Source: Clostridia bacterium (GTDB lineage Bacteria; Bacillota; Clostridia; Oscillospirales; CAG-272). From it: a DNA stretch of 38,954 nt. This document shows, piece by piece, positions 2,674 through 20,700 of the stretch (the first letter of the stretch is position 1; each line of letters starts with the position of its first letter). Position numbers and translations under genes: made by a program. Where the stretch lies: assembly GCA_017461945.1 (NCBI GenBank), contig JAFTSB010000009.1, positions 1 to 38,954 on the forward strand, in the 5' to 3' direction. The notes beneath the pieces are model-generated. The model made no database searches, was not told the origin of the DNA, and saw only the letters and a program-made list of their open reading frames with translations.

Positions 2674-3606
2674 TCAGACAATATACAAGTTTGCTTGCTC
2701 GATGTCGTGCTTGATCTGCGCCTCTAACTCCGCCACGGAGTTGAATTTTTTCTCCTCGCGCAAAAAGCGAAGAAAGGAGACTTGAATTTCTCTCCCATAG
2801 AGGTCGCCGTTGTAGTGAAAGATAAAGGTCTCACAATTGATTTGACCGTCATTTTCAAAGGTTGGGCGGCGACCCACGTTGCTAATGGCAAAATAGGAGT
2901 GCCGCGCGATCCGCACGCAAGAGAGATAAACGCCCTTCATTGGAATTAAACTGCCGCTGGGAAAGGCGAGATTGGCCGTTGGAAAGCCCATAGTGGTGCC
3001 CACGTGGCGTCCGTGCGTCACTTTTCCTTGCAGGGAATAGGGGCGCCCTAATAGCCGGGCGGCATCCTCGGGATGCCCGTTTTCCAACATGGAACGGATC
3101 AGACTGGAGCTGACGGTGTGGGGGCCGTCGGTCACAGCATCTACCACAGAAAGTGTACAACCGGGGGCTGCCCCAAAGGTTTCCTGCAACCGTGCCACGT
3201 TGCCGGCACCCTTGGCGCCATAGGTATAATTAAATCCGCACACCGCCAAGCGGCAATGGCATTGCTTGATCAGCACCTGTTTCACAAAATCGTCGGGGGA
3301 CATATCCTTCAGCTCTGCAAAATCATAAAGTACGGCAAAATGCAATCCCATATCTCCAAGCAGCTTCAGCTTTTCATCCAGCGTGGTCAGCTGCGGTACG
3401 GTAATGGGGGAGAGAATAGAGGAGGGGGGCTGGGCAAAAAGTAAGGCACCCAAATACAGATGCTGCTCGCGTGCGGCGTTTTGACGCTTCAATTCTTCAA
3501 CAAGTGCCCGATGCCCACGGTGCACGCCGTCAAAATTTCCAAGACACAGACCGCAGCTTTGCAGCTCAAAGGGCTTGCCCGGTTTTTTTAGATTTACAAT
3601 TTGCAC
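2674..3606 (-). CDS. ribF: Bifunctional riboflavin kinase / FAD synthetase
   Basis: This enzyme phosphorylates riboflavin to FMN and adenylylates FMN to FAD in the cytoplasm. The N-terminal nucleotidyltransferase domain shows LGNFDGVHRGH (residues 22-32), GFNYTYGAKGAG and SSSLIR. The C-terminal flavokinase domain shows GRHVGTTMGFPTANL, MKGVYL, ISNVGRRPTF and ETFIFHYNGDLYG. The start is GTG 3606, which follows AAAGGAGG by 8 bases; a longer frame to 3642 has no ribosome binding site and would include the promoter. The length of 310 residues is normal. It is commonly found behind truB and rpsO, but here it stands alone with its own promoter. No FMN riboswitch can fit in the short leader. Confidence 0.95.
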   Translation of the reverse strand: MQIVNLKKPGKPFELQSCGLCLGNFDGVHRGHRALVEELKRQNAAREQHLYLGALLFAQPPSSILSPITVPQLTTLDEKLKLLGDMGLHFAVLYDFAELKDMSPDDFVKQVLIKQCHCRLAVCGFNYTYGAKGAGNVARLQETFGAAPGCTLSVVDAVTDGPHTVSSSLIRSMLENGHPEDAARLLGRPYSLQGKVTHGRHVGTTMGFPTANLAFPSGSLIPMKGVYLSCVRIARHSYFAISNVGRRPTFENDGQINCETFIFHYNGDLYGREIQVSFLRFLREEKKFNSVAELEAQIKHDIEQANLYIV

Positions 3607-3632
3607 GTCCGGCACCTCCTTTACAATTTTAT

Positions 3633-3661
3633 AGTATAACAAATTTTTACACGCAATGCAA
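3633..3661 (-). promoter_or_regulatory. ribF promoter
   Basis: Minus strand TTGCAT (3656-3661), 17-base spacer, TATACT (3633-3638); transcription starts about 20 bases before the GTG start codon. Confidence 0.75.
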
Positions 3662-3709: not shown

Positions 3710-3738
3710 TTGACACCGTACTCTGGGCATGGTATAAT
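3710..3738 (+). promoter_or_regulatory. Consensus promoter of the TerB-ATPase-helicase operon
   Basis: TTGACA (3710-3715), 17-base spacer, TATAAT (3733-3738), a perfect sigma-A consensus. It suggests strong constitutive expression of the downstream trio. No operator-like repeat is seen around it. Confidence 0.9.
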
Positions 3739-3770
3739 AGAATATTACAGAAAGGAGGGTGAACGTTACC

Positions 3771-5450
3771 ATGACATTCGACAAGAAGCGAACGGAAAAG
3801 GATGACTTTTGGGATCTTTCCGATCTGGTGCCCAAGCGCAAGCCCTCCCCGATTTTGCCCACATCGCGGTCTACCGATGCAGTAGAAATTGCTTTACCGT
3901 CCGCACCCGTAAACGATGCCGTTGCGGCCGATGTCCCCCTGACCGAGCGTTTTGTGTCGCCTCATGCCGCAAACGAGCAGCAATATGCACCCAAGCCAGA
4001 GAAGGTCTACCGGCCGAAGGGAGCCTTGATCCGCGAGGTTCGCATCTATCCTTGGAAGAATGAATACACCTATTACGAGCAGTTCCGGCGGCACGCCGAA
4101 CAGCTTTGCGATAGGGAGGGGAGTCCTGCGGCCGAGGTGGACTTTTTCTCCTATATGCCGCAATACACACAGCTCAATCGCTCACAGCTGGATTACTATT
4201 TTTGGTGGCGTACCAATTTCCGCCAAGGCGTGTGTCTGCCTGCCGCGTATTCCTATCTTCTGCTCTATCTCTATGAGCTGATCAATTTGGGCGAAAAACA
4301 TCAAAATCCGCAAACGGGTCAAGAAAATATGCTCCGTTTGTGGCTGTCGTACCGTGAAAAGCATCCACGCCTGGATGTGCTGGTGCGCGAATGGCTTTGC
4401 GATTATTCTTTGCTGCATCAACTGCCGGCGCCGCATCTGGAGTCTGCCGATTATCGCCATCTGCTATCGGGTTGTCGTTTGAAGGAATTCTATGTTTCGG
4501 CTGCGGAAGGAGCGGACGAAATGACGGCGGCGGTGTTGCTGTTTTGCAACAATTACGATTACACAAAAAGCAAATTCTACCGTCCTGACACCAAAGAGGA
4601 TTACGACCGTGTACTGGGTGGAGCGATTCGTGAAGCGCTTACCTTTTTGCAGGAGCAGAGTGGAAACGCCCTGACCGATGCCAGCGGCATCAGCACGCTG
4701 GGGCGCGACACCTTTTCGGGGGCGGTCTGCTCGTGGCGCCTAAAACGCCGTATCGAGGTGGATTATACCTCTTTCTCCCACACACACGAATTGCGCTATA
4801 TTATGACGGATGTGCTCAAATATGCCGAAAATGCATTGCGTGCCCGAAATGGCGTGAAATCGAGGCTTTCGATCTATGCCATCAGCATTCCGCTGCGCGA
4901 ACGCCTGGATGCCTATCTGGCTACTGTTCTGCCGCCTAAAGTTGCGCACACAACGGCTAAAAAGGCCGATCTCATCCCGCTGTATGAGCGCCGCTATGAT
5001 TTGCCCCAAAGCGAATTGTCACCGGAGCGCGCCGCCGCCATTGAAAGCGAATCCTGGGAGACAACACAGCGCTTGGTGGAGGCCTTTTCGGATCCCGAAA
5101 GAGAAGAAAACAGCATAACGGTGCGAGAAAAATGTGACAAAACACCTGTTTTTGCTGCAGATGCTCCGCCTGTCGCTTTCGAACAGACGCTGCCCCCTAT
5201 CCCCAACGGATCTCCCCTGCAGCAGGCGCTGGGAGATCTGGCAGCCTTTTTGCCTTTGGCCGCCGCAGGGGATCGTTTGGCACAACGCGCCTTTGCCCGC
5301 GAGAAGGGAAGAATGTTGGATGCCCTGGCCGACGAGATCAATACCGTCGCCGGGGATGTTCTGGGTGACATCATTCTGGAGGATGCAGGCGGCGTGTACA
5401 CTTTGATCGAGGATTATATCGAAACTCTTACCCAACAAGGAGTGTTGTAA
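3771..5450 (+). CDS. TerB-N / TerB-C domain protein, first gene of the DNA-processing trio
   Basis: The protein has 559 residues from ATG 3771, with AAAGGAGGG at 3751-3759 (an alternative GTG at 3759 sits inside the ribosome binding site). The first 80 or so residues are low-complexity. Residues about 95-330 look like a TerB-N domain: conserved aromatic core FSYMPQYTQLNRSQLDYYF, followed by WWRTNFR and SYLLLYLYELIN. The C-terminal 90 residues (after LPPIPNGSPL, ending in GGVYTLIEDYIETL) look like a TerB-C domain. The central TerB metal-binding core is not obvious. The biochemical role is unknown; TerB-type proteins are linked with stress and phage-response neighbourhoods and are thought to be scaffolds or metal sensors. 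It is separated from the ATPase gene by 1 base and is translationally coupled to it. Confidence 0.75.
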   Translation: MTFDKKRTEKDDFWDLSDLVPKRKPSPILPTSRSTDAVEIALPSAPVNDAVAADVPLTERFVSPHAANEQQYAPKPEKVYRPKGALIREVRIYPWKNEYTYYEQFRRHAEQLCDREGSPAAEVDFFSYMPQYTQLNRSQLDYYFWWRTNFRQGVCLPAAYSYLLLYLYELINLGEKHQNPQTGQENMLRLWLSYREKHPRLDVLVREWLCDYSLLHQLPAPHLESADYRHLLSGCRLKEFYVSAAEGADEMTAAVLLFCNNYDYTKSKFYRPDTKEDYDRVLGGAIREALTFLQEQSGNALTDASGISTLGRDTFSGAVCSWRLKRRIEVDYTSFSHTHELRYIMTDVLKYAENALRARNGVKSRLSIYAISIPLRERLDAYLATVLPPKVAHTTAKKADLIPLYERRYDLPQSELSPERAAAIESESWETTQRLVEAFSDPEREENSITVREKCDKTPVFAADAPPVAFEQTLPPIPNGSPLQQALGDLAAFLPLAAAGDRLAQRAFAREKGRMLDALADEINTVAGDVLGDIILEDAGGVYTLIEDYIETLTQQGVL

Positions 5451-5451
5451 T

Positions 5452-6801
5452 ATGGAACAAAAGCAATCTGTAACCGTGCCCCGCCGTATTCTGTCCTCGC
5501 TGCTGTCCTCTCTGGCGGCAGGCGTGGTGCCGCGCGCGGGCGCTCCCTATATTGCCATCGGCCGCAAGGATGAGATCGGTGCGTTTCTTTCTGACTTGGA
5601 AAACATTGGCGAGGGCGGCTCCTCCATGCGGTTTCTCATCGGCCGCTATGGCAGCGGCAAAAGTTTTTTGATGCAGCTGATCCGCGGCTATGCTCTGGAG
5701 CGCGATTTTCTCACGGCAGATGCCGATCTGACCCCCGAGCGTCGCCTGCACGGCAGCGGCGGCAGCGGTGTTGCCACCTATCGGGAGCTGATCAAAAATC
5801 TGGCCTCAAAGGCCGCGCCCGATGGGGGAGCGCTGCCCCGCGTTATCGCCCGTTGGATCGGTAATTTGCAGGCGAATGTGGGCGAAAATGACGAAACGGG
5901 TGCCCGTTTACAGGGCGCTGTGATGAATGATCTGCGCGATGTGGAATTCCTTGTGGGTGGCTTTGACTTTGCCCGCGTGATCACCGCTTATTATCGCGCG
6001 TATATGGAGGGGGACGACGAAAAAATGTCCGCTGCCCTGTGCTGGCTTCGCGGCGAATTTGCCTCCAAAACCGAGGCGCGTCGCGCCCTCGGCTTTTCGG
6101 TTTCCCTCATCATCGACGACGATAACTGGTATGATTTTATCAAGCTTTGGGCTGTGCTTGCCAGACGCATCGGATATCGCGGTTTCGTGGTGTTTATCGA
6201 CGAGTGTGTTAATTTGTATAAGATCGTTCATCGTGTCAGTCGTGAGAATAACTATGAAAAGATCCTTTCGATGTTCAATGATGCTCTGCAGGGTAAGGCG
6301 GAGGGCCTATTGATGGTGCTGGGCGGCACCCCCCAGTTCCTGGAGGATACCCGTCGCGGCCTGTTCGGCTATGAGGCCCTGCGCAGTCGCCTTTGCGACA
6401 GTCGGTTCCAGGACGAGGAGTTCCGTAATCTGATCGGCCCAGTGATCCGCTTGCGCCGCTTGTCTGATGATGAGCTGTTTGCCTTGATCGTGCGTGTGAC
6501 GGCGCTCTATGCACAATACTATCAATGGGAGCCTCGTATTACCGCTGAACAGCAAATGCAGTTTTTGCGTTTGGCACTCTCGCGCGCCGGCGGAAATAGT
6601 ATGGTTACCCCCCGTGAGATCTTGCGCGATTATTTTACCGTTCTGGGCATTCTGATGCAAAACGAGGATGCGAATTTTGAAAGGATCATTGCTAAGGTGG
6701 CGGCCCAAAGCCGCCCTGTGGGTGAGCCCGATGACGACGCTCCGGTTGTGGAAACAACAACACGTAAAACCGATTTTTCGCCCGCTGACATTATTTTGTA
6801 A
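5452..6801 (+). CDS. BrxD-like P-loop ATPase (DUF2791-type)
   Basis: This 449-residue AAA-type ATPase has Walker A GRYGSGKS (residues 64-71) and Walker B FVVFIDE (245-251). It starts with VPRRILSSLLSSLAAGVVPR followed by YIAIGRKDEI, typical of the BrxC/BrxD ATP-binding family (formerly DUF2791) found in BREX and related defence islands. Such ATPases probably load or power the partner helicase on DNA. ATG 5452 lies one base after the TerB-N gene stop. The PglZ phosphatase, BrxX methylase and BrxC genes of a BREX system are absent here, so this is a stand-alone module. Both ATPase motifs are intact. The family call is confident; the role is inferred. Confidence 0.82.
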   Translation: MEQKQSVTVPRRILSSLLSSLAAGVVPRAGAPYIAIGRKDEIGAFLSDLENIGEGGSSMRFLIGRYGSGKSFLMQLIRGYALERDFLTADADLTPERRLHGSGGSGVATYRELIKNLASKAAPDGGALPRVIARWIGNLQANVGENDETGARLQGAVMNDLRDVEFLVGGFDFARVITAYYRAYMEGDDEKMSAALCWLRGEFASKTEARRALGFSVSLIIDDDNWYDFIKLWAVLARRIGYRGFVVFIDECVNLYKIVHRVSRENNYEKILSMFNDALQGKAEGLLMVLGGTPQFLEDTRRGLFGYEALRSRLCDSRFQDEEFRNLIGPVIRLRRLSDDELFALIVRVTALYAQYYQWEPRITAEQQMQFLRLALSRAGGNSMVTPREILRDYFTVLGILMQNEDANFERIIAKVAAQSRPVGEPDDDAPVVETTTRKTDFSPADIIL

Positions 6802-6809
6802 GGATTTTT

Positions 6810-9050
6810 ATGACACAGGCAGATCGTATTTTTGAAAGATTCCCCCCGTTCATCCGGGAATATATTTACGGCCACTCATGGGATAGCCTACGTGGCGTGC
6901 AAATGGCAGCTGCCCATACGCTGTTCGATACCGATCATCATCTTTTGCTCACCTCGGGAACTGCCAGCGGCAAGACCGAGGCTGCCTTCTTTCCCATTTT
7001 GGCAGAGCTTTATGATCGTCCTCCCATGGGAATTGGTGCGTTGTATATCGCCCCTCTCAAGAGTCTGATCAACGATCAATTTGGCCGCATGGAGGAGCTG
7101 CTGGACGAAAGCGGCATTCCCGTTACCCACTGGCACGGCGATGTGTCCGCCTCGCACAAGCGGCGCTTGCTGGAAAATCCGTCGGGCATTCTGCAGATCA
7201 CACCCGAGTCGCTGGAGGCGATGCTGATCCGTCGCTCCAACGATATGGTACGGCTGTTTGGCGACCTGCGATACGTCATCATTGATGAGGTCCATACCCT
7301 TACCGGTACCGATCGCGGCAATCAGATCCAGTGCCAGCTTTCCCGTCTTGCCCGTCTCATTGGTCACCAACCCCGTCGCGTGGGGCTTTCGGCCACCATT
7401 GGTGATCCTGCATTGGCAGCTAAATGGTTGGCAGGGGATAGTAACGCGCCCGTGGATGTGCCCACCCTTCCTGCCGAGAACATCCGGTGGCGCCTTGGAT
7501 TGGAGCATTTCTTTTTCCAAAATGCCGATCCGGAGCAATCCCGGGATGATAAAACAGCCGATCCCGAAAAAACGGCAGAGCTGGATGCCGGTTATGAGTA
7601 TATGTATGATTGCGTAAAGGATAAAAAGGCGCTGGTTTTCTCCAACTCCCGTGAGGAGACCGAGTATCTTACTGCCACCTTTCGCCAGATTGCCGAGCGT
7701 CGCCGTGAGCCCGATGTGTTCTTGATCCATCACGGTAACCTCTCCGCTGCTTTGCGTGAGGATGCCGAGCTGAAAATGAAGGATGAGGAAAAGCAGGTGG
7801 TAACCTGTGCCACTGTAACCATGGAGCTTGGTATTGATATCGGGCGCTTGGAGCGCGTGCTGCAAAACGATGCTCCGACCTCGGTTTCCTCGTTCTTGCA
7901 ACGCTTGGGCCGCTCGGGCAGACGTGGCCAGCCTCCTGAAATGATGATGGTTTTTCGTGAGGAGGATCCGCTCCCCAACACCCCATTGCCCCAACTGATG
8001 CCGTGGGGATTGCTGCGTGCTATCGCTATCATTCAGTTGTATTTGGAGGAGCGATTTATTGAGCCGCCCCGCGAGAAAAAAATGCCCATGAGCCTGCTGT
8101 TTCATCAAACCCTCAGCGTGCTGGCATCCGGCGGTGAAAAAACGCCGAAGGCCTTGGCCGAGCGTGTGTTGAGCCTCCCGCCTTTTCAATGCGTCAGCAA
8201 GGAGGATTATCGCACACTATTGGTCTCGATGCTGAATAACGAGTTCCTGGAAATGACCGAAGAAAAGGGCTTGATCGTGGGCCTGGCCGGCGAACGGCTG
8301 CTGAAAAGCTTTCAGTTTTTTGCGGTGTTTAAGGATAGCGAGGATTTCACCGTCCGCGCCGGTGATCCCGAAAAGGGAAGCGCCGAGGAGATCGGTACCA
8401 TCACAACGCCGCCCCCTGTTGGTGAGCGCTTTGCACTGGCCGGTCGCGTGTGGGAGGTAGAGGAGCTGGATGTGCGTCGCAAGCTGGTTTACGTTCATCC
8501 CGTCTTGGGCAAAATGGAGGTTTCCTGGCCGGGTGATTACGGCGAGATCCACACAAAAATACTGGAACGTATGCAAAAAATTCTGACAGAGGATGTGGAA
8601 TATCCTTATTTAAAGCCCAATGCGGCACACCGCCTGGCGGTCGCCCGTCATCTGGCAAGAAACACGGGCATCACCGATCATATGCTGCTGCATCTGGGCG
8701 GCTCCACGTGGTGTTTATTCCCGTTTTTGGGTACACGATCTTTTCGCACATTGCGCCGCTTTTTAACGGTGCACGCCAAAGAGCTTGGCATTTCCGGCAT
8801 TGAGTTTGATGGATGCTATTATATCACCTTTCGCATGGAAGGCGATCGGGATGATTTTCTTTATGCCCTTGCTCCCCTTGTCGCGCGCGAGATCCGCTGT
8901 GAAGAGCTGGTCGGCCCTGCCGAAATGCCGGTGTTTGATAAGTTTGACCCGTTTATCCCCGGCGAGCTTTTGCGCCGCGCATACGCCTGCGATCGCTTGT
9001 GTGCGCACGAGGTAAAGGCGCGCTTGCAGCAGCTGCTATCGGGCAGATAA
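6810..9050 (+). CDS. Lhr-like superfamily 2 DEVH helicase
   Basis: This 746-residue helicase ends the operon, 8 bases after the ATPase gene with AAGGA before its ATG. Motif I is TSGTASGKTEA (48-58), motif II DEVH (159-162), motif III SAT (194-196), motif IV near ALVFSNS (274-280), motif V TVTMELGIDIGR and motif VI QRLGRSGRRG (364-373). This is the Lhr/BrxHI-type arrangement, followed by about 370 residues of accessory domain. Expected role: ATP-driven unwinding or translocation on nucleic acid together with the upstream ATPase. No nuclease or methylase domain is recognised. All helicase motifs look functional. Confidence 0.88.
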   Translation: MTQADRIFERFPPFIREYIYGHSWDSLRGVQMAAAHTLFDTDHHLLLTSGTASGKTEAAFFPILAELYDRPPMGIGALYIAPLKSLINDQFGRMEELLDESGIPVTHWHGDVSASHKRRLLENPSGILQITPESLEAMLIRRSNDMVRLFGDLRYVIIDEVHTLTGTDRGNQIQCQLSRLARLIGHQPRRVGLSATIGDPALAAKWLAGDSNAPVDVPTLPAENIRWRLGLEHFFFQNADPEQSRDDKTADPEKTAELDAGYEYMYDCVKDKKALVFSNSREETEYLTATFRQIAERRREPDVFLIHHGNLSAALREDAELKMKDEEKQVVTCATVTMELGIDIGRLERVLQNDAPTSVSSFLQRLGRSGRRGQPPEMMMVFREEDPLPNTPLPQLMPWGLLRAIAIIQLYLEERFIEPPREKKMPMSLLFHQTLSVLASGGEKTPKALAERVLSLPPFQCVSKEDYRTLLVSMLNNEFLEMTEEKGLIVGLAGERLLKSFQFFAVFKDSEDFTVRAGDPEKGSAEEIGTITTPPPVGERFALAGRVWEVEELDVRRKLVYVHPVLGKMEVSWPGDYGEIHTKILERMQKILTEDVEYPYLKPNAAHRLAVARHLARNTGITDHMLLHLGGSTWCLFPFLGTRSFRTLRRFLTVHAKELGISGIEFDGCYYITFRMEGDRDDFLYALAPLVAREIRCEELVGPAEMPVFDKFDPFIPGELLRRAYACDRLCAHEVKARLQQLLSGR

Positions 9051-9076
9051 GGATACTCTGAATCCAATAGCCACAG

Positions 9077-9115
9077 AAAAAGGGCGGAGAACGTTTCACA
9101 TTCTCCGCCCTTTTT
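9077..9115 (+). terminator. Terminator of the TerB-ATPase-helicase operon
   Basis: A 15-bp stem (9077-9091 with 9101-9115) with a 9-base loop and terminal T run. It is nearly symmetrical and also serves the leftward XRE gene. Confidence 0.92.
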
Positions 9116-9136: not shown

Positions 9137-9355
9137 TTATTTGAGCTTTTTGGGTTTGTCAATCAATCCCGCGAGATAGTCCAACGAAACATTGTAATGC
9201 TTTGCCAAGGTCACAAAATGGTGCATTGGCATTTCGCGCTTTCCGCTTTCATAAAGCTGATATTGCTGCCTGGTAATATTTAAAATCAGAGCAATGTCCT
9301 CTTGCTTTTTATCCGCGTCCTCTCTGACATCCTTCAGCCTTTGATAAATATACAT
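9137..9355 (-). CDS. XRE-family repressor, module 1
   Basis: This 72-residue single-domain helix-turn-helix protein of the Cro/CI (XRE) type should bind DNA as a dimer. The scaffold YQRLKDVREDADKKQEDIA leads into a recognition region near residues 28-36 (TRQQYQLYE), and the C-terminus is LAKHYNVSLDYLAGLID. GGAG lies 8 bases before ATG 9355. The gene is divergent from a DUF6809 gene, and the region between them holds three copies of a GCATTCA palindrome, so autorepression and control of the partner are likely. It is paralogous to the gene at 15273-15491: both ends are nearly identical and the recognition helix differs. Confidence 0.9.
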   Translation of the reverse strand: MYIYQRLKDVREDADKKQEDIALILNITRQQYQLYESGKREMPMHHFVTLAKHYNVSLDYLAGLIDKPKKLK

Positions 9356-9393
9356 ATGACATCTCCAATTTCGAAAAAGTGATATTCATAGAT

Positions 9394-9402
9394 ATTATAG
9401 CA
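9394..9402 (-). promoter_or_regulatory. Extended -10 promoter of XRE module 1
   Basis: Minus strand TGCTATAAT, an extended -10 with no clear -35. The first GCAT palindrome (9405-9420) lies directly upstream, where a repressor would block RNA polymerase. The same layout is found in module 2. Confidence 0.6.
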
Positions 9403-9404
9403 TT

Positions 9405-9473
9405 GCATTCAAAAAAATGCTCGACAAGCATTCAAATGAATGCCATAATAATTTTGAGCATCTATTTGAATGC
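9405..9473. promoter_or_regulatory. Three palindromic operators of XRE module 1
   Basis: Three 16-base sites share GCAT....ATGC ends: GCATTCAAAAAAATGC (9405-9420), GCATTCAAATGAATGC (9428-9443) and GCATCTATTTGAATGC (9458-9473). The middle one is a perfect 7-bp inverted repeat with a 2-base centre. It lies exactly between the -35 (TCGACA, 9421-9426) and -10 (CATAAT, 9444-9449) of the rightward promoter. That placement argues for repression of the DUF6809 gene by the divergent XRE protein. Confidence 0.78.
9421..9449 (+). promoter_or_regulatory. Promoter of DUF6809 gene, module 1
   Basis: TCGACA (9421-9426), 17-base spacer, CATAAT (9444-9449). The spacer is almost entirely the central operator palindrome. 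Confidence 0.7.
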
Positions 9474-9494
9474 AATGTCAAGAAAGGAAATACT

Positions 9495-9833
9495 ATGAAA
9501 GAAACGCTTGAAAAGTTATGGAATGAATATCTTGCTGAAGAATGCGCAGTCATAGATACCGAAGAAGAAAAGAGGCTTGCAAAAAAGGCAGCAGAGAAGC
9601 ATGATATTGCAAATGATTTATTGACAAAGGAACAAAGTGATATTGTTGAAGATTACGTGGATGCAGTGTGCGAGATCCAAGGTTGCTTTTCAAAGAAGGC
9701 ATTTTTCAAGGGGTGTGAATTTACAGCATCCTTTCTCCTTGAAGTGGGAAGTTTCAAAAAAAACATAAAGATTTCTTCGCTATATCACAGCCTTTCCTTT
9801 GGAAGAGAGGCGATGCTGCCGATTGCTGGTTAA
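9495..9833 (+). CDS. DUF6809-family small protein, module 1, with abnormal C-terminus
   Basis: This 112-residue helical, acidic protein of unknown function begins MKETLEKLWNEYLAEECAV and contains KKAFFKGCEF and SFLLEVG, matching small clostridial proteins I recall as DUF6809. ATG 9495 follows AGAAAGG; an upstream frame to 9417 overlaps the promoter and is not used. It is identical at 57 of 85 positions, by eye, to the paralogue at 15615. The paralogue stops right after EVGNLEN, but this one runs 25 residues further past a run of eight A (near 9756-9763). With seven A the frame would stop at once (EVGSFKKT), so the tail may be a frameshift product. It is divergent from, and probably controlled by, the XRE gene. 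Confidence 0.75.
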   Translation: MKETLEKLWNEYLAEECAVIDTEEEKRLAKKAAEKHDIANDLLTKEQSDIVEDYVDAVCEIQGCFSKKAFFKGCEFTASFLLEVGSFKKNIKISSLYHSLSFGREAMLPIAG

Positions 9834-16716: not shown

Positions 16717-16748
16717 AGAAAACACGCTCCTTGTTGAGTTGTGCCTTC

Positions 16749-16777
16749 AGTATACCATGAATTGGCAAGAAAAGCAA
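16749..16777 (-). promoter_or_regulatory. Promoter of the HAD gene
   Basis: Minus strand TTGCTT (16772-16777), 17-base spacer ending TGG, TATACT (16749-16754). Confidence 0.75.
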
Positions 16778-16836
16778 GAGGGGCGACAATTTTCCTAAAA
16801 AATCTTCGCTTGGGACTATGCAAACCGAATCAAATA

Positions 16837-16845
16837 TGCTATAAT
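16837..16845 (+). promoter_or_regulatory. Extended -10 promoter of the rRNA methyltransferase gene
   Basis: TGCTATAAT; the -35 (TATGCA) is weak. A GCGCG/CGCGC hairpin (16864-16876) lies in the leader just before GGAGG. Confidence 0.6.
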
Positions 16846-16890
16846 GATTATAATTATATTCACGCGCGCTACGCGCACGGAGGTTTTACC

Positions 16891-17766
16891 ATGGAAAAAA
16901 GAAGAAATGACAGCAGATTTGGCGCAGATCGTACCTCTCGCAACACCTATGGAAAGGGTGGTTATCCCCCTCGTCGCGACCGCACTCCTATGGGCGGTGC
17001 CGATTCCGTTCGGGATGAGAGTGAGGTGGGCAACGGTGCTGTGATCGGTAGAAATGCCGTTCGCGAGTTGCTGCGGTCCGGTCGCTCCGTGGATAAGCTG
17101 CTGGTGCAAAGCGGCGAGCGTGAGGGGGCGCTGGTCCCCTTGGTGGGCGAAGCCATCGAGCGCGGCATCCCCGTGGTAGAAACCGAAAAACGAAAAATGG
17201 ATCAGATCGCCGGTCATGCGCCTCATCAGGGCATCATTGCGTTGGCGGCTGAAAAAGAATACTGCAGTGTAGAGGATATTTTGGCCATCGCAGCCGAGCG
17301 GGGCGAAAAGCCCCTGGTGGTGGTGGCGGATGGCATTGCCGATCCTTACAATCTGGGCGCTGTGATCCGATGCGCTGAGGGATGCGGTGCCCATGGCCTG
17401 ATCATCCCCAAGCGTCACGCCGCAGGTCTTTCCCCGGTGGTGACCAAGGCCTCTGCCGGTGCCATTGAGCATCTTGCCGTGGCAAAGGTCTCCAATATTG
17501 CCGCAACGATCGAGACCTTGAAAAAGGAAGGCCTTTGGATCTATGCTGCTGAGGCGGGCGGTGCAGATTTCCGTGAGACGGATATGTCAGGCGCGGTGGC
17601 TATCGTGCTGGGAAGCGAAGGGGATGGCGTATCGGAATTGGTGCGCAAAAAGAGCGACTTTGTCGTATCGATTCCCATGTATGGCAAGGTCAATTCTTTT
17701 AACGTCTCTACTGCTGCGGCCGTTTTACTGTGCGAGGCCGCTTATCAGCAAAGAAAAGGAAAGTGA
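16891..17766 (+). CDS. rlmB: 23S rRNA (guanosine-2'-O-)-methyltransferase, RlmB/TrmH family
   Basis: This 291-residue SpoU-fold enzyme transfers a methyl group from SAM to a ribose 2'-OH of RNA. After an unusual, basic and disordered N-terminal extension of about 45 residues (MEKRRNDSRFGADR...) come the substrate-binding domain (VIGRNAVRELLRSGRSVDKL) and the knotted catalytic domain with ADGIADPYNLGAVIRCAE, GAIEHL, IVLGSEGDGVSELV and IPMYGKVNSFNVSTAAAVLL. GGAGG lies 7 bases before ATG 16891. It has its own promoter; the large membrane protein follows after 33 bases, probably in the same transcript. RlmB is the best match; other SpoU members cannot be fully excluded. Confidence 0.9.
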   Translation: MEKRRNDSRFGADRTSRNTYGKGGYPPRRDRTPMGGADSVRDESEVGNGAVIGRNAVRELLRSGRSVDKLLVQSGEREGALVPLVGEAIERGIPVVETEKRKMDQIAGHAPHQGIIALAAEKEYCSVEDILAIAAERGEKPLVVVADGIADPYNLGAVIRCAEGCGAHGLIIPKRHAAGLSPVVTKASAGAIEHLAVAKVSNIAATIETLKKEGLWIYAAEAGGADFRETDMSGAVAIVLGSEGDGVSELVRKKSDFVVSIPMYGKVNSFNVSTAAAVLLCEAAYQQRKGK

Positions 17767-17799
17767 GCATGGATGTTCTAAAGGAAAGGAGGAATGGAT

Positions 17800-20700
17800 G
17801 TGCCAAAGGACATTGACTGGAAGGAAACAGAATGGTTGGTAAAGCAGCTCCGCGCCAAGCTGGAGGAGGATGGCGATACTGCCGAAGCCGATCCTGCCGC
17901 ATCACGCATTGAGGATCTCCCCGTAACCGAGCCTGTGCACACCGATCCTCATCCTGTACATAAAGAAAGCGCCCGCAAGCGCAAAAAGAATCGCTATAAA
18001 ACCTATGGGGCAGACCTACAAGCCAAAAAAGAGATGCAAGAATCCGTCCCCGCAGAGCCCGAAAAGGCAGAATCTACGGTTGTAGAAGAACCCCCGGCGG
18101 AGCCCGAAAAGGCAGAACCTACCGTAGTAGAAGAAACCCCCGCAGAGCCCGGAAAAGAGGAAGCCGTCTCCACAGAGGAGCCGACTTCTGCATATGCGTA
18201 CGCCGTTCCGCCGCCTCAAAAGCGCACCGCGATGTTTGCCGCCTCCTATGACGTGGAAGAGCCCTCGGAATTTATAGCACCCAAGGCGCAAAAGGCAAAA
18301 CCTGCTCCCCAACCTCAAGCGGTTGCGCGTACCGACGAGGAACAGCGAGCCGAGGCCACCGTGGAGGATCTGCTGCAGGATCTGTTCGGCACGGCGCAGG
18401 ATTCCGGTTGGTTCACAGGTGAGGAGAAAAAAGCAAGCCCTGCACCGGTGGCACCCGCCCCTGCGGCAGAAGCGCCCGTTCCTCCAAAACCGGCTCCCTC
18501 TCCTGCAGAGCCTGCCGTGTCGCAAAAAGAGGAGACCGTACCCCCGAAAAAGGGAAAGCAGAAAAAACAAAAACGCGATAAAAGCGCCGTTGAGACCATC
18601 ACGCGTGAGCGTGACGGCCAAATGGCATTGGTGCTGCCCGAAACCGGCAAGCCTTTGGTGATCCATAGCGAGGAGGAGCATGCCCAACATCGGGAGCGGC
18701 ACGCAAACCGCACCGACGAGGCACAAATTGATGTGTTTTCCGCAACCCCGGCCGAGCTGGTTGGTCCTCGCGATCCCGAACGTGACCGTATTGCCTTCAA
18801 GCAGTCCATTGAGGCATCGGAGGATGAATTCCGCATGCTGTTGGATCTGGACTACGAGGAGGAGCTGGGGGATGCGATCGGCTTTGAAAAGATCCGCAGC
18901 TATCACGAGGAGGGCGTGAACGGCCGTGCTGTACCCAAGCGGCGCCGTCGCAAATCCGGCGAATCGCTGGAATATGAGGTGCAGGGGCAGGATACCTCCC
19001 TGCGCAAGCGTTACACCAAGCAAAAAAGCGAACACGTCATCGGCCTGATCCTTTCAGTTGCCTTGACGGTGCTGCTGTTTATTTACGAGCAATCGGGGTG
19101 GATGGCAGCTCTGCTGGGCGGCCCCTTTGATGGTGCACGCTACCCGGTGGCCTATATCCTGATCGGATTGCAGTTTTTGGTGATTGCCGCCTTTTTCTCG
19201 CGTAAACGACTGATCGAAGGTTTTTTGCGTGTCCTGCGATTTTCGCCCATTGACTATTCACTTTGCTCGGTGGTGTTCATGGCCACAATTCTGTATCACG
19301 TGGTGCTGATTTTTATGCCGCACGAGGGCGCACCCACCCTGTATTTGTCGCCTGCCGCCATGAGCCTTGCGCTGTTGGCCTTGGCCGATCTGTTGGATTG
19401 GTACCGCGAATCGCTGGCCTTTCAGGTGGTCTCCTCGCGCAAGCAAAAGTATGCCCTGATCCCTCGCGCCTCTGTTGGCGGAAAGCAGGGGAATGCCAAG
19501 CTGCGACTCACCGAGGACGAGTCCGCCGGCACAGTTTGGTACTTGCGCCCTGTGGGCTTTGTCCGTAACTATTTTGCCAATACCGAAAAGCGCGTGGAGC
19601 ATAGCCGCTCCTTCGGCTCAACCATGCTGCTGTCGCTGGCCATCGGCCTTGGCCTTGGCCTTTATTGCGTGGCAAGCGGTAAGGGTGTTGAGGCCGTGTT
19701 CCAAACAGTCTTTGCCACCTTTTTGCTGTGCGTGCCGGCATCCTCCCTGTTGGTTACCTCGCTGCCAATGTTTCTGGCTGCCTGCTTGCGATTGGGCAAG
19801 AAGGGTGCTATCGTGGGCGAAACGCCCATTAGCAGCTGCGGTGATGATACCACGCTGATCATCCCCGATGCCGAGGTGTTCGGTGCCATGCATCACGAGC
19901 GTTTTGAGCTGGTAGAGGAGGACGATCCCTTGCGTGTCAGTATCTTGGTGCGCGCCCTGCTGGAAAAGCTGCAAAGTCCTCTTTGCGACTCTGTTATCAT
20001 TGACCGTGATATGCGCATCAGCCCCTCTGAGGTGACGCTGGTGGAAATCGACGATGCCGGTATTGCCGCCGTGGTGGGCGAGCAAAAAACGCCGATGCTG
20101 ATGGGCAGCCTGGATTATTTGCGCGCCCACGGTGTTCCGGTTAAAGCACGGGCGGGCTTTGACCCCGAAAGCGGCGGAAAACGCCTGATCTGCGTGGCTG
20201 TGAATGGTAAGGTGTCGGCGTTGTTTTTGGCGCGGTACCGCTTGAACGACGATATGCGCGAGCTGCTGCACGAGCTGGAGCGCGAGGATGTGGATATTGT
20301 GGTCCGTACCAAGGATCCCGGCATTCACAACGATCTGTTCAAAGGGCTGCTGCCCGAACGCAAGGCGCCCGTGCGTGTGATCAAGCCCACCGTAAGGGAA
20401 ATGGATCTGCGTACTGACCGCGTGGATGCTACCATTGTGGCACTTGGCTCTTGTCGAGAGGCCGCCCGTACCTTTGTAACCTGCCGTCGCGTGCGCCGTG
20501 CAGGCGCCCTTGGCAAGATCTTTCAGGTATTGTCGGTGCTGGTGGGCGCTTTGCTTGCCACGCTGCTGACCATTCTGGGCGGTTCGGTGGCGCTGTCTGC
20601 CTTTACCGTGTCGCTGTATCTGTTGCTTTGGTGTGGCGTTCACGCCGTGACCTCCTATTTCTATCTGCGTGAAAAGAACGACGAGCAGCAACCCCAATAA
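17800..20700 (+). CDS. Large membrane protein resembling a catalytically degenerate P-type ATPase
   Basis: The protein has about 966 residues. The first 400 are charged, proline- and glutamate-rich and probably disordered, with repeats of the type PAEPEKAE.TVVEE. Hydrophobic segments follow at about 414-431, 451-468, 488-508, 516-536, 608-625, 634-664 and 908-957. Their layout matches a P-type ATPase: a short A-domain-like loop (540-607), a CVPASSLLVTSLPMF segment where the family has CPCALGLATP, a loop of 240 residues with VAVNGKVSALFLARYRLNDD (family VAVDGK...D.LR.D) and VDATIVALGSCREAARTFV (family ADVGIAMG...). The phosphorylation motif DKTGT is absent (IPDAEVFG instead), as are TGE and GDGxND. 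It therefore cannot pump by the standard mechanism. GTG 17800 is preferred (7 bases after GGAGG) over ATG 17794. The function is unknown. Confidence 0.7.
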   Translation: MPKDIDWKETEWLVKQLRAKLEEDGDTAEADPAASRIEDLPVTEPVHTDPHPVHKESARKRKKNRYKTYGADLQAKKEMQESVPAEPEKAESTVVEEPPAEPEKAEPTVVEETPAEPGKEEAVSTEEPTSAYAYAVPPPQKRTAMFAASYDVEEPSEFIAPKAQKAKPAPQPQAVARTDEEQRAEATVEDLLQDLFGTAQDSGWFTGEEKKASPAPVAPAPAAEAPVPPKPAPSPAEPAVSQKEETVPPKKGKQKKQKRDKSAVETITRERDGQMALVLPETGKPLVIHSEEEHAQHRERHANRTDEAQIDVFSATPAELVGPRDPERDRIAFKQSIEASEDEFRMLLDLDYEEELGDAIGFEKIRSYHEEGVNGRAVPKRRRRKSGESLEYEVQGQDTSLRKRYTKQKSEHVIGLILSVALTVLLFIYEQSGWMAALLGGPFDGARYPVAYILIGLQFLVIAAFFSRKRLIEGFLRVLRFSPIDYSLCSVVFMATILYHVVLIFMPHEGAPTLYLSPAAMSLALLALADLLDWYRESLAFQVVSSRKQKYALIPRASVGGKQGNAKLRLTEDESAGTVWYLRPVGFVRNYFANTEKRVEHSRSFGSTMLLSLAIGLGLGLYCVASGKGVEAVFQTVFATFLLCVPASSLLVTSLPMFLAACLRLGKKGAIVGETPISSCGDDTTLIIPDAEVFGAMHHERFELVEEDDPLRVSILVRALLEKLQSPLCDSVIIDRDMRISPSEVTLVEIDDAGIAAVVGEQKTPMLMGSLDYLRAHGVPVKARAGFDPESGGKRLICVAVNGKVSALFLARYRLNDDMRELLHELEREDVDIVVRTKDPGIHNDLFKGLLPERKAPVRVIKPTVREMDLRTDRVDATIVALGSCREAARTFVTCRRVRRAGALGKIFQVLSVLVGALLATLLTILGGSVALSAFTVSLYLLLWCGVHAVTSYFYLREKNDEQQPQ

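Follow-up and report, generated by a model that had tools for sequence, protein, structure and literature searches.

A Shango operon in a Clostridia bacterium and the natural history of its genes within one bacterial family

The DNA analysed here, a stretch of 38,954 nucleotides from a Clostridia bacterium (contig JAFTSB010000009.1, referred to as the window), carries near its left end three adjacent genes for a TerB_N/TerB_C protein, a BrxC/BrxD-type ATPase and a superfamily 2 (SF2) helicase. The trio is Shango (sngABC), a membership as good as sequence can make it, and has the Shango gene order A-B-C in a single operon, an arrangement often broken up in the wider family. A preliminary description of this DNA had named no characterised function for the trio, a statement to be corrected, since Shango has published anti-phage activity (PMC10250203). 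The trio itself being already known, what is new is its natural history in the family of the window's genome, where Shango resembles a resident chromosomal gene set and not a mobile island, its genes sometimes lying apart yet usually being present or absent together. Copies of this lineage are called resident below, as opposed to a foreign type carried by seven genomes.

The sngABC operon and its products

The operon comprises the following features (aa, amino acids).

3710..3738, plus strand: promoter TTGACA-N17-TATAAT with extended -10 (TG), 12/12 match
3751..3758, plus strand: Shine-Dalgarno AAAGGAGG, ahead of ATG 3771, read from the sequence
3771..5450, plus strand: sngA, TerB_N + TerB_C protein, 559 aa (563 aa from GTG 3759), by Pfam and PADLOC
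3801..3833, plus strand: SngA N-terminal motif DDFWDLSDLVP, in an otherwise low-confidence tail
4074..4436, plus strand: TerB_N domain (PF13208, 7.2e-16)
5013..5429, plus strand: TerB_C domain (PF15615, 6.3e-9), predicted HHH-EE-H order
5452..6801, plus strand: sngB, BrxC/BrxD-type ATPase, 449 aa (PF10923, BrxC_BrxD, 8.7e-148)
5641..5664, plus strand: SngB Walker A GRYGSGKS (Lys70), pattern in 71/71 resident SngB
6199..6204, plus strand: SngB Walker B Asp250-Glu251, both invariant in alignments of 14 and 55 SngB
6810..9050, plus strand: sngC, SF2 helicase of BrxHI/Lhr type, 746 aa, by PADLOC SngC
6957..6980, plus strand: SngC helicase motif I GTASGKTE, TASGKTE in 68/68 resident SngC
7284..7295, plus strand: SngC helicase motif II DEVH, DE[VIL]H in 67/68 resident SngC
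9077..9115, plus strand: intrinsic terminator, 39-base inverted repeat ending in T5, 87% self-match on the opposite strand

The three open reading frames (ORFs; 3759/3771-5450, 5452-6801 and 6810-9050) are separated by gaps of 1 and 8 bases, so that the tight operon under a perfect promoter proposed in the preliminary description is borne out. ATG 3771 is the likelier start of sngA because GTG 3759 abuts the Shine-Dalgarno sequence. A scan of the window returned 15 promoter-like sites, where shuffled sequence would give 4.4, and the sngA promoter is the sole perfect one. Across the family 59 of 77 sngA loci, a set that includes the seven of foreign type, have an upstream match at 11 or all 12 of the positions (30 perfect), compared with 31 of 173 control genes taken from the same loci (10 perfect); the sngA promoter thus exceeds the chance level, and resident Shango is probably expressed constitutively, to judge from these promoter sequences. 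The terminator that had been suggested at the operon's end is also present, although missing from the list of the promoter and terminator scan, probably because its loop exceeds the rule's length limit.

The assignments of all three proteins, including the resemblance of the second and third to BrxD and BrxHI, were upheld by profile searches, in which Pfam returned TerB_N, TerB_C, BrxC_BrxD, DEAD (2e-28) and Helicase_C (2e-16), the last two in SngC; failure to find the TerB or BrxD families had been named in advance as a result that would count against the proposal. SngB matches the PADLOC SngB model at 7.9e-158 (524 bits), followed by BrxD at 5.2e-48 (162 bits), and reaches 159 bits with the NCBIfam BrxD equivalog, whose cut-off is 350. 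Lys70, already picked out as the Walker A lysine, does not vary in either SngB alignment (14 and 55 sequences), and a strict Walker B pattern is found in 60 of the 71 resident sequences. SngC matches its PADLOC model at 3.5e-239 (794 bits) over residues 7-737 of 746, with BrxHI next (4.9e-125, 416 bits); the DEVH box named in the preliminary description is present, and a motif-IV-like pattern occurs in 54/68 resident SngC. The helicase core matches PDB entry 5v9x at 2e-29, which is titled ATP-dependent DNA helicase and which we take to be of Lhr type. One scan confirmed 576 relatives of SngB, and the best 80 named among them are metagenome-assembled genomes, many from animal gut.

SngA is the most divergent of the three. 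Its PADLOC match (7.8e-56) aligns residues 89-559 of the 563-aa form with positions 69-525 of the 528 in the model. Within three within-genus pairs its identity is 55-68%, against 76-88% for SngB and SngC, and the nonsynonymous and synonymous divergences (dN and dS) between the window and a second genome, G008, are 0.28 and 2.1 for SngA, 0.12 and 1.05 for SngB and 0.09 and 1.4 for SngC, values of which just the order counts, with SngA fastest, because dS is saturated. In the window's SngA Pfam finds only TerB_N and TerB_C and not the central TerB (PF05099), which PMC10952713 lists as a Shango SngA domain. Two further resident SngA gave TerB_N with TerB_C (locus L115) and TerB_N only (L165). 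Central TerB is present in three of four SngA from proteobacterial and actinobacterial plasmids (769-1023 aa), being absent from the Aeromonas copy (789 aa), and Pfam does not find it in the Paenibacillus SngA (573 aa) or in either foreign-type copy tested. As the Paenibacillus protein and one of the four plasmid copies do without TerB, and the PADLOC model of SngA is just 528 positions long, we take its absence to mark a variant and do not regard TerB as defining Shango.

A second peculiarity is the short N-terminal motif, with the consensus DxFWD(I/L)xxLxP. The pattern [DENSG]xF[WY][DNE][ILVM] is found in 54/70 resident SngA, and most of the remaining 16 have by eye a relaxed DxFWD form, with none in G084; the seven foreign-type SngA gave one match, at a different site. 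The stricter [DEN]xFWD[ILVM] occurs in 122 of 242 SngA-matching ORF segments, a set that includes canonical and duplicate loci, and in 0 of 16,022 others (16,264 segments in all); it is also present in 2/3 loci of family f138 and not in the canonical copies listed. The AlphaFold2 model of SngA has a mean predicted local distance difference test score (pLDDT) of 84.8 and a predicted template modelling score of 0.64. Its uncertain regions are residues 442-478 and parts of the tail, where the pLDDT is 68 for residues 11-20 and 47 for residues 1-10. The best-looking local Foldseek matches of this model, spanning about 70 columns, are to LysR- and CggR-type winged-helix domains that bind DNA, and the HHH-EE-H order predicted for TerB_C fits them, suggesting that TerB_C may be winged-helix-like. 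A PDB sequence search with SngA and SngB profiles gave no match, nor did a search of PHROGs with the two proteins.

Distribution, descent and dispersal within the family

In the window's genus 17 of 21 genomes have a match to the SngA model, and in the family 137 of 196, covering 56/71 genera and 87/116 of the better genomes. SngB is present in 138 of the same 196 genomes and SngC, counted at E 1e-80, in 133, compared with 182 for rpoB, 31 for Cas1 and 8 for PglZ (4 above cut-off). Co-occurrence of the three genes in other genomes, on which the earlier proposal had been staked, is the rule: 129 of the 196 have all three and 55 have none. Shango thus outnumbers Cas1 several times over in the family without attaining the frequency of a core gene, in genomes that are drafts and vary in completeness. 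SngA is found in 35 of 147 genomes of an order sample, which holds some family members, and in 16/299 of a phylum sample with the window's genome included, or 15/298 outside it. No relative of SngB was found among 50,697 phage records, and a pattern-based scan of viral contigs confirmed none. Plasmid matches came from 690 records, all below 60% identity, and the five that were opened are Shango trios. On one of the plasmids, a conjugative plasmid of Sulfitobacter (L352), Shango is directly followed by genes annotated as an ABC-three component system.

Descent was followed in 80 Shango stretches from 77 genomes and 80 rpoB stretches, 22 of which come from genomes without an SngA-SngB pair, with RpoB ORFs picked by homology for the congruence trees. 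Seven genomes (G182, G140, G095, G028, G181, G157 and G026, six of which have an RpoB row) form the foreign-type set, their SngA scoring 153-261 with the family profile against at least 395 for the rest. With these set aside, the RpoB and SngB trees of 48 genomes have 22/45 splits in common (label shuffles: mean 0.19, maximum 2 in 200), and RpoB has 21/44 and 17/27 splits in common with SngA and SngC. Sampled resolved quartets match RpoB in 12815/13705 cases for SngB (94%), 11875/13870 for SngA and 10575/11748 for SngC. The agreement of SngC holds when unlinked sngC genes are added to its tree (24/42 splits, 12497/14175 quartets). As an in-family control, Cas1 of 13 genomes, which spans more than one CRISPR type as judged by scores, matches RpoB in 184/465 quartets (40%, near the one-third expected by chance), while on the same genomes SngB reaches 341/389, SngC 301/435 and SngA 278/404.

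The resident copies also form a single lineage. In a tree of 78 SngB from the family, order, phylum and plasmids, the 28 sampled resident copies are one clade (bootstrap 97, Shimodaira-Hasegawa-like approximate likelihood-ratio test 99), which joins families f138, f128 and f137 of the same order in a wider clade (90/84). The absence of sng genes needs a minimum of 11 changes on the RpoB tree, compared with 19.4 for shuffled labels, and so goes largely by clades. The vertical residence of Shango in the family is well supported. The seven foreign-type SngB require 4 changes and are placed among families f129, f132 and f124 and phylum members; at their loci (L101-L106, L108) Shango of foreign type stands in place of the resident one, and in genera g36 (G157 beside G055) and g7 (G026 beside G093) a congener has no SngA match, as if Shango had been re-acquired after loss.

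The resident genes occupy recognisable chromosomal sites, in the window beside one divergent gene that is not part of the system:

2674..3642, minus strand: ribF, divergent neighbour (Pfam Flavokinase, FAD_syn), marking a conserved chromosomal site

In most fetched loci of the window's genus sngA lies divergently beside or near ribF, and a ribF-family ORF is so placed in 16/81 loci of several genera, the window included. In six loci of other genera alaS was seen by eye downstream of sngB (3/6 confirmed by Pfam), and ribF, alaS and metabolic genes are the most frequent Pfam matches on resident flanks. PADLOC, run on 108 proteins flanking 27 resident loci, matched 38 families; for each of the 25 listed, one protein accounts for the match. 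Helicase models of a general kind (DinG, RecD and UvrD type) are numerous among them, and mad2, mad3 (8e-104), mad8 and PDC models occur as well. Clustering of resident Shango with other defence genes did not emerge from this flank scan, which was made without a control set.

The genes do not always stay together. The best hits for sngC and sngB lie on different contigs in 54 of 131 genomes, and those for sngA and sngB in 10 of 136. The figure of 54 is inflated by contig breaks, G062 and G071 having an sngB fragment beside sngC and other hits lying near contig ends (e.g. G045, G057, G089, G200, G211), and is too high to carry the claim, which we rest on 20 separated sngC cases that were checked, chosen by the stretches fetched and not at random. 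In 19 of the 20 one or both of the two loci lie over 3 kb from the contig ends, and in 13 this is true of both, so broken assembly does not explain the separation. These unlinked sngC are open frames of 731-984 aa and require 5 changes on the SngC tree, 4 of them forced by well-supported branches, from which it follows that the separation arose repeatedly or was reversed. Of the 10 splits between sngA and sngB, those in G061, G088, G156 and G162 fall away, since a second fragment shows the genes to be linked. The six that are left belong to genera g18 and g53 and bear no sign of a break, and in G072 (g53) the two genes are divergent and 2.7 kb apart. In two loci of genus g55, L112 and L120 (G168 and G126), about 1.4-1.6 kb of extra DNA separates sngB from sngC, with a 337-aa ORF in L120.

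Separated genes still tend to be kept as a set. Of 42 RpoB-tree genomes in which the genes are unlinked or lacking, 19 have both sngAB and sngC, 21 have neither, and sngAB alone or sngC alone is found in 1 each. Independent co-loss of unlinked sngAB and sngC could be scored in 2 pairs on well-supported branches and in 6 on all branches, changing in the same direction in 1.4 of 2 on average and never in opposite ones, a result that is suggestive only because the independent pairs are so few.

Among the 23 other window proteins scanned with Pfam, a part of the window's ORFs, there is no PglZ, DNA methylase or nuclease family, in agreement with what had been said of the locus from its sequence, and PglZ has no match in the window's own genome (85% complete), a genome-wide search that did not extend to methylases. 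The sole methylase among the proteins scanned is a SpoU-type rRNA methylase (16741-17766), and next to it, at 17794-20700, lies a 968-aa protein without Pfam or PHROG match whose family occurs in 5/81 loci. Between sngC and a GH42-like gene, AT-rich DNA at 9137-9833 holds a helix-turn-helix gene of RstR-like type on the minus strand (NCBIfam phage_RstR 1.5e-11, under cut-off) and a DUF6809 gene. The genes at this position mostly differ in the other species of the genus, so that the operon has a variable downstream side. At the window's left edge, 37-762 encodes a partial or short tyrosine integrase (PF00589 7e-26, PHROG integrase 3e-46), with an ORF of the same family in the congeneric locus L100.

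A probable standing defence system, or possibly a genome-maintenance complex

We favour, with some reserve, the reading of the trio as a resident Shango lineage, ancestral in the family and inherited with the chromosome since, read from a strong vegetative-type promoter and acting in defence through a loader, a helicase and an adaptor. By analogy with homologues, from which each step is drawn, SngB as a BrxC/BrxD-type AAA+ ATPase would serve as a loader, putting the SngC helicase onto DNA or activating it there. SngA would act as adaptor or sensor, using its TerB_N body and winged-helix-like TerB_C to recognise either DNA or the assembly of SngB with SngC, and the DxFWD(I/L)xxLxP tail at its N terminus to dock on a partner. 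The engaged helicase may then disturb phage DNA replication; as no nuclease family was recognised, destruction of phage DNA would need a host nuclease, or a simple block of replication might suffice. That defence is still the function of the resident form is likewise presumed from the members tested elsewhere.

Several observations weigh against this reading. The 55 genomes without any sng gene mean that Shango is not essential, and most genomes of the family sample are multi-contig drafts. The species tree is that of one gene, RpoB, and the trees are quick LG+G4 trees. With the foreign-type genomes kept in, quartet agreement with RpoB is 82% for SngB, 81% for SngA and 84% for SngC, and on the 13 Cas1 genomes SngA and SngC reach just 69%. 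Agreement with RpoB is better for the SngA and for the SngC tree than agreement between the two (12099/16263 quartets), which means that there is noise or some exchange. As to the adaptor, the SngA model has 0 Foldseek matches in the PDB at E 0.001 or better, and its winged-helix likeness is weak, with Foldseek probabilities mostly of 0.2-0.5 and E above 1.

The preliminary description had left the choice between a minimal anti-phage and a genome-maintenance module, and this is still the right pair of alternatives for the lineage: the known function of Shango is defence, but its wide presence, vertical descent and dispersal are unlike a mobile cassette. A repair or replication-fork complex, ancestral to mobile defence or recruited from it and with defence secondary or absent, would agree with the breadth and vertical inheritance of the trio in the family, with an sngC that stands apart from sngAB in 19/20 checked cases and an sngA apart from sngB in g18 and g53, with neighbours such as ribF and alaS and few defence-model matches around, and with the strong conserved promoter. 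Gene dispersal and wide vertical presence in particular weigh toward maintenance. Against this stand the genomes that lack Shango altogether, an absence for which the RpoB tree demands 11 or more changes, the anti-phage activity of the members tested by others, and the fast evolution of SngA, as might be expected of a phage-facing protein. Defence is ranked first and maintenance second because presence is not universal and SngA evolves fast, and we hold a maintenance role of this kind to be rather unlikely, though a serious contender. An ordinary horizontally mobile island that is merely common in this family could account for the PADLOC assignment, for the SngB relatives on plasmids elsewhere (690 records) and for the seven family genomes with the foreign type, but for the resident type it is already contradicted by tree congruence, the Cas1 control and the single resident clade, as well as by conserved sites within genera, separated genes and the failure to find a phage or viral-contig relative, and is very improbable. 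A remnant or derivative of bacteriophage exclusion (BREX) type 2 that kept BrxD and BrxHI and lost its other genes is scarcely credible: both models do match, and the two proteins form a dyad in BREX (PMC12839542), but the bit scores of SngB (524 vs 162) and SngC (794 vs 416) favour Shango, the BrxD equivalog score of 159 lies under 350, the sole BrxD above cut-off sits outside SngB on a long branch (in a tree rooted on that BrxD), and PglZ occurs in just 8/196 family genomes. Chance ORFs were considered too and, like the plain mobile island and the BREX remnant, rejected.

A bolder proposal, which we put forward tentatively, is that the resident Shango lineage has turned into, or has been from the outset, a fixed complex of the cell that surveys DNA or maintains replication forks constitutively, with subunits that may be encoded far apart and a lineage-specific motif that would dock on a core DNA protein. 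If so, one machine would exist in a mobile and in a resident life style, the second of which would reveal a role beyond phage defence. Defence systems are usually seen as mobile, patchy cassettes, whereas Shango is present here in about 70% of a large family, tracks the species tree and survives the dispersal of its genes. Resident Shango thus offers a natural test of whether defence machines can act as standing genome guardians, or stem from housekeeping ones, and the TerB-free SngA, the conserved N-terminal peptide and hundreds of relatives for coevolution and structure work provide handles on the mechanism.

Comparison with known systems

In the open-access literature we found no paper on the mechanism of Shango, nor on vertically fixed or dispersed Shango genes. 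A 2026 survey of BREX (PMC12839542) describes BrxD as an AAA+ ATPase of ORC/Cdc6 type and suggests that it may serve as loader or activator of BrxHI; 'Shango' occurs 0 times in its main text. In a helicase tree of 2024, SngC, BrxHI, DruE and DpdJ fall together in what may be a separate clade of SF2 (PMC12278908). The window shares with BREX type 2 a homologous pair of ATPase and helicase, proposed there to be loader and helicase (PMC12839542), and differs in that no PglZ or BREX methylase was found nearby and in BREX scores far under those of the Shango models. The likeness to Lhr-type helicases lies in the helicase core, while SngC belongs to its own Shango family and has an ATPase partner.

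Among Shango systems, those of Paenibacillus (plasmid NZ_CP045296.1) and of scattered phylum members are like the window's in their short TerB-less SngA (573 aa) and in trio order, and unlike it in having a different SngB clade and a patchy occurrence (15/298 in the phylum sample). The E. coli system is reportedly that of Millman et al. 2022. According to PMC10250203, PAO1 given the PA14 genes for the TerB-like protein, ATPase and DEAD/DEAH helicase under their own promoter plated many phages, though not all, 10-100-fold less well, and its liquid cultures were in general strongly protected; by the same account the E. coli system acts about 10-fold on two phages. In a metagenome study, restriction-modification genes prefer co-occurrence with Shango outside defence islands (PMC10924106). 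The PA14 and E. coli systems have the same three kinds of gene as the window, whose proteins match the PADLOC models over most of their length; the window differs from them in an SngA without central TerB and with the N-terminal DxFWD motif, and the resident loci lie mostly beside housekeeping genes and are vertically inherited, not in a hotspot or on a plasmid.

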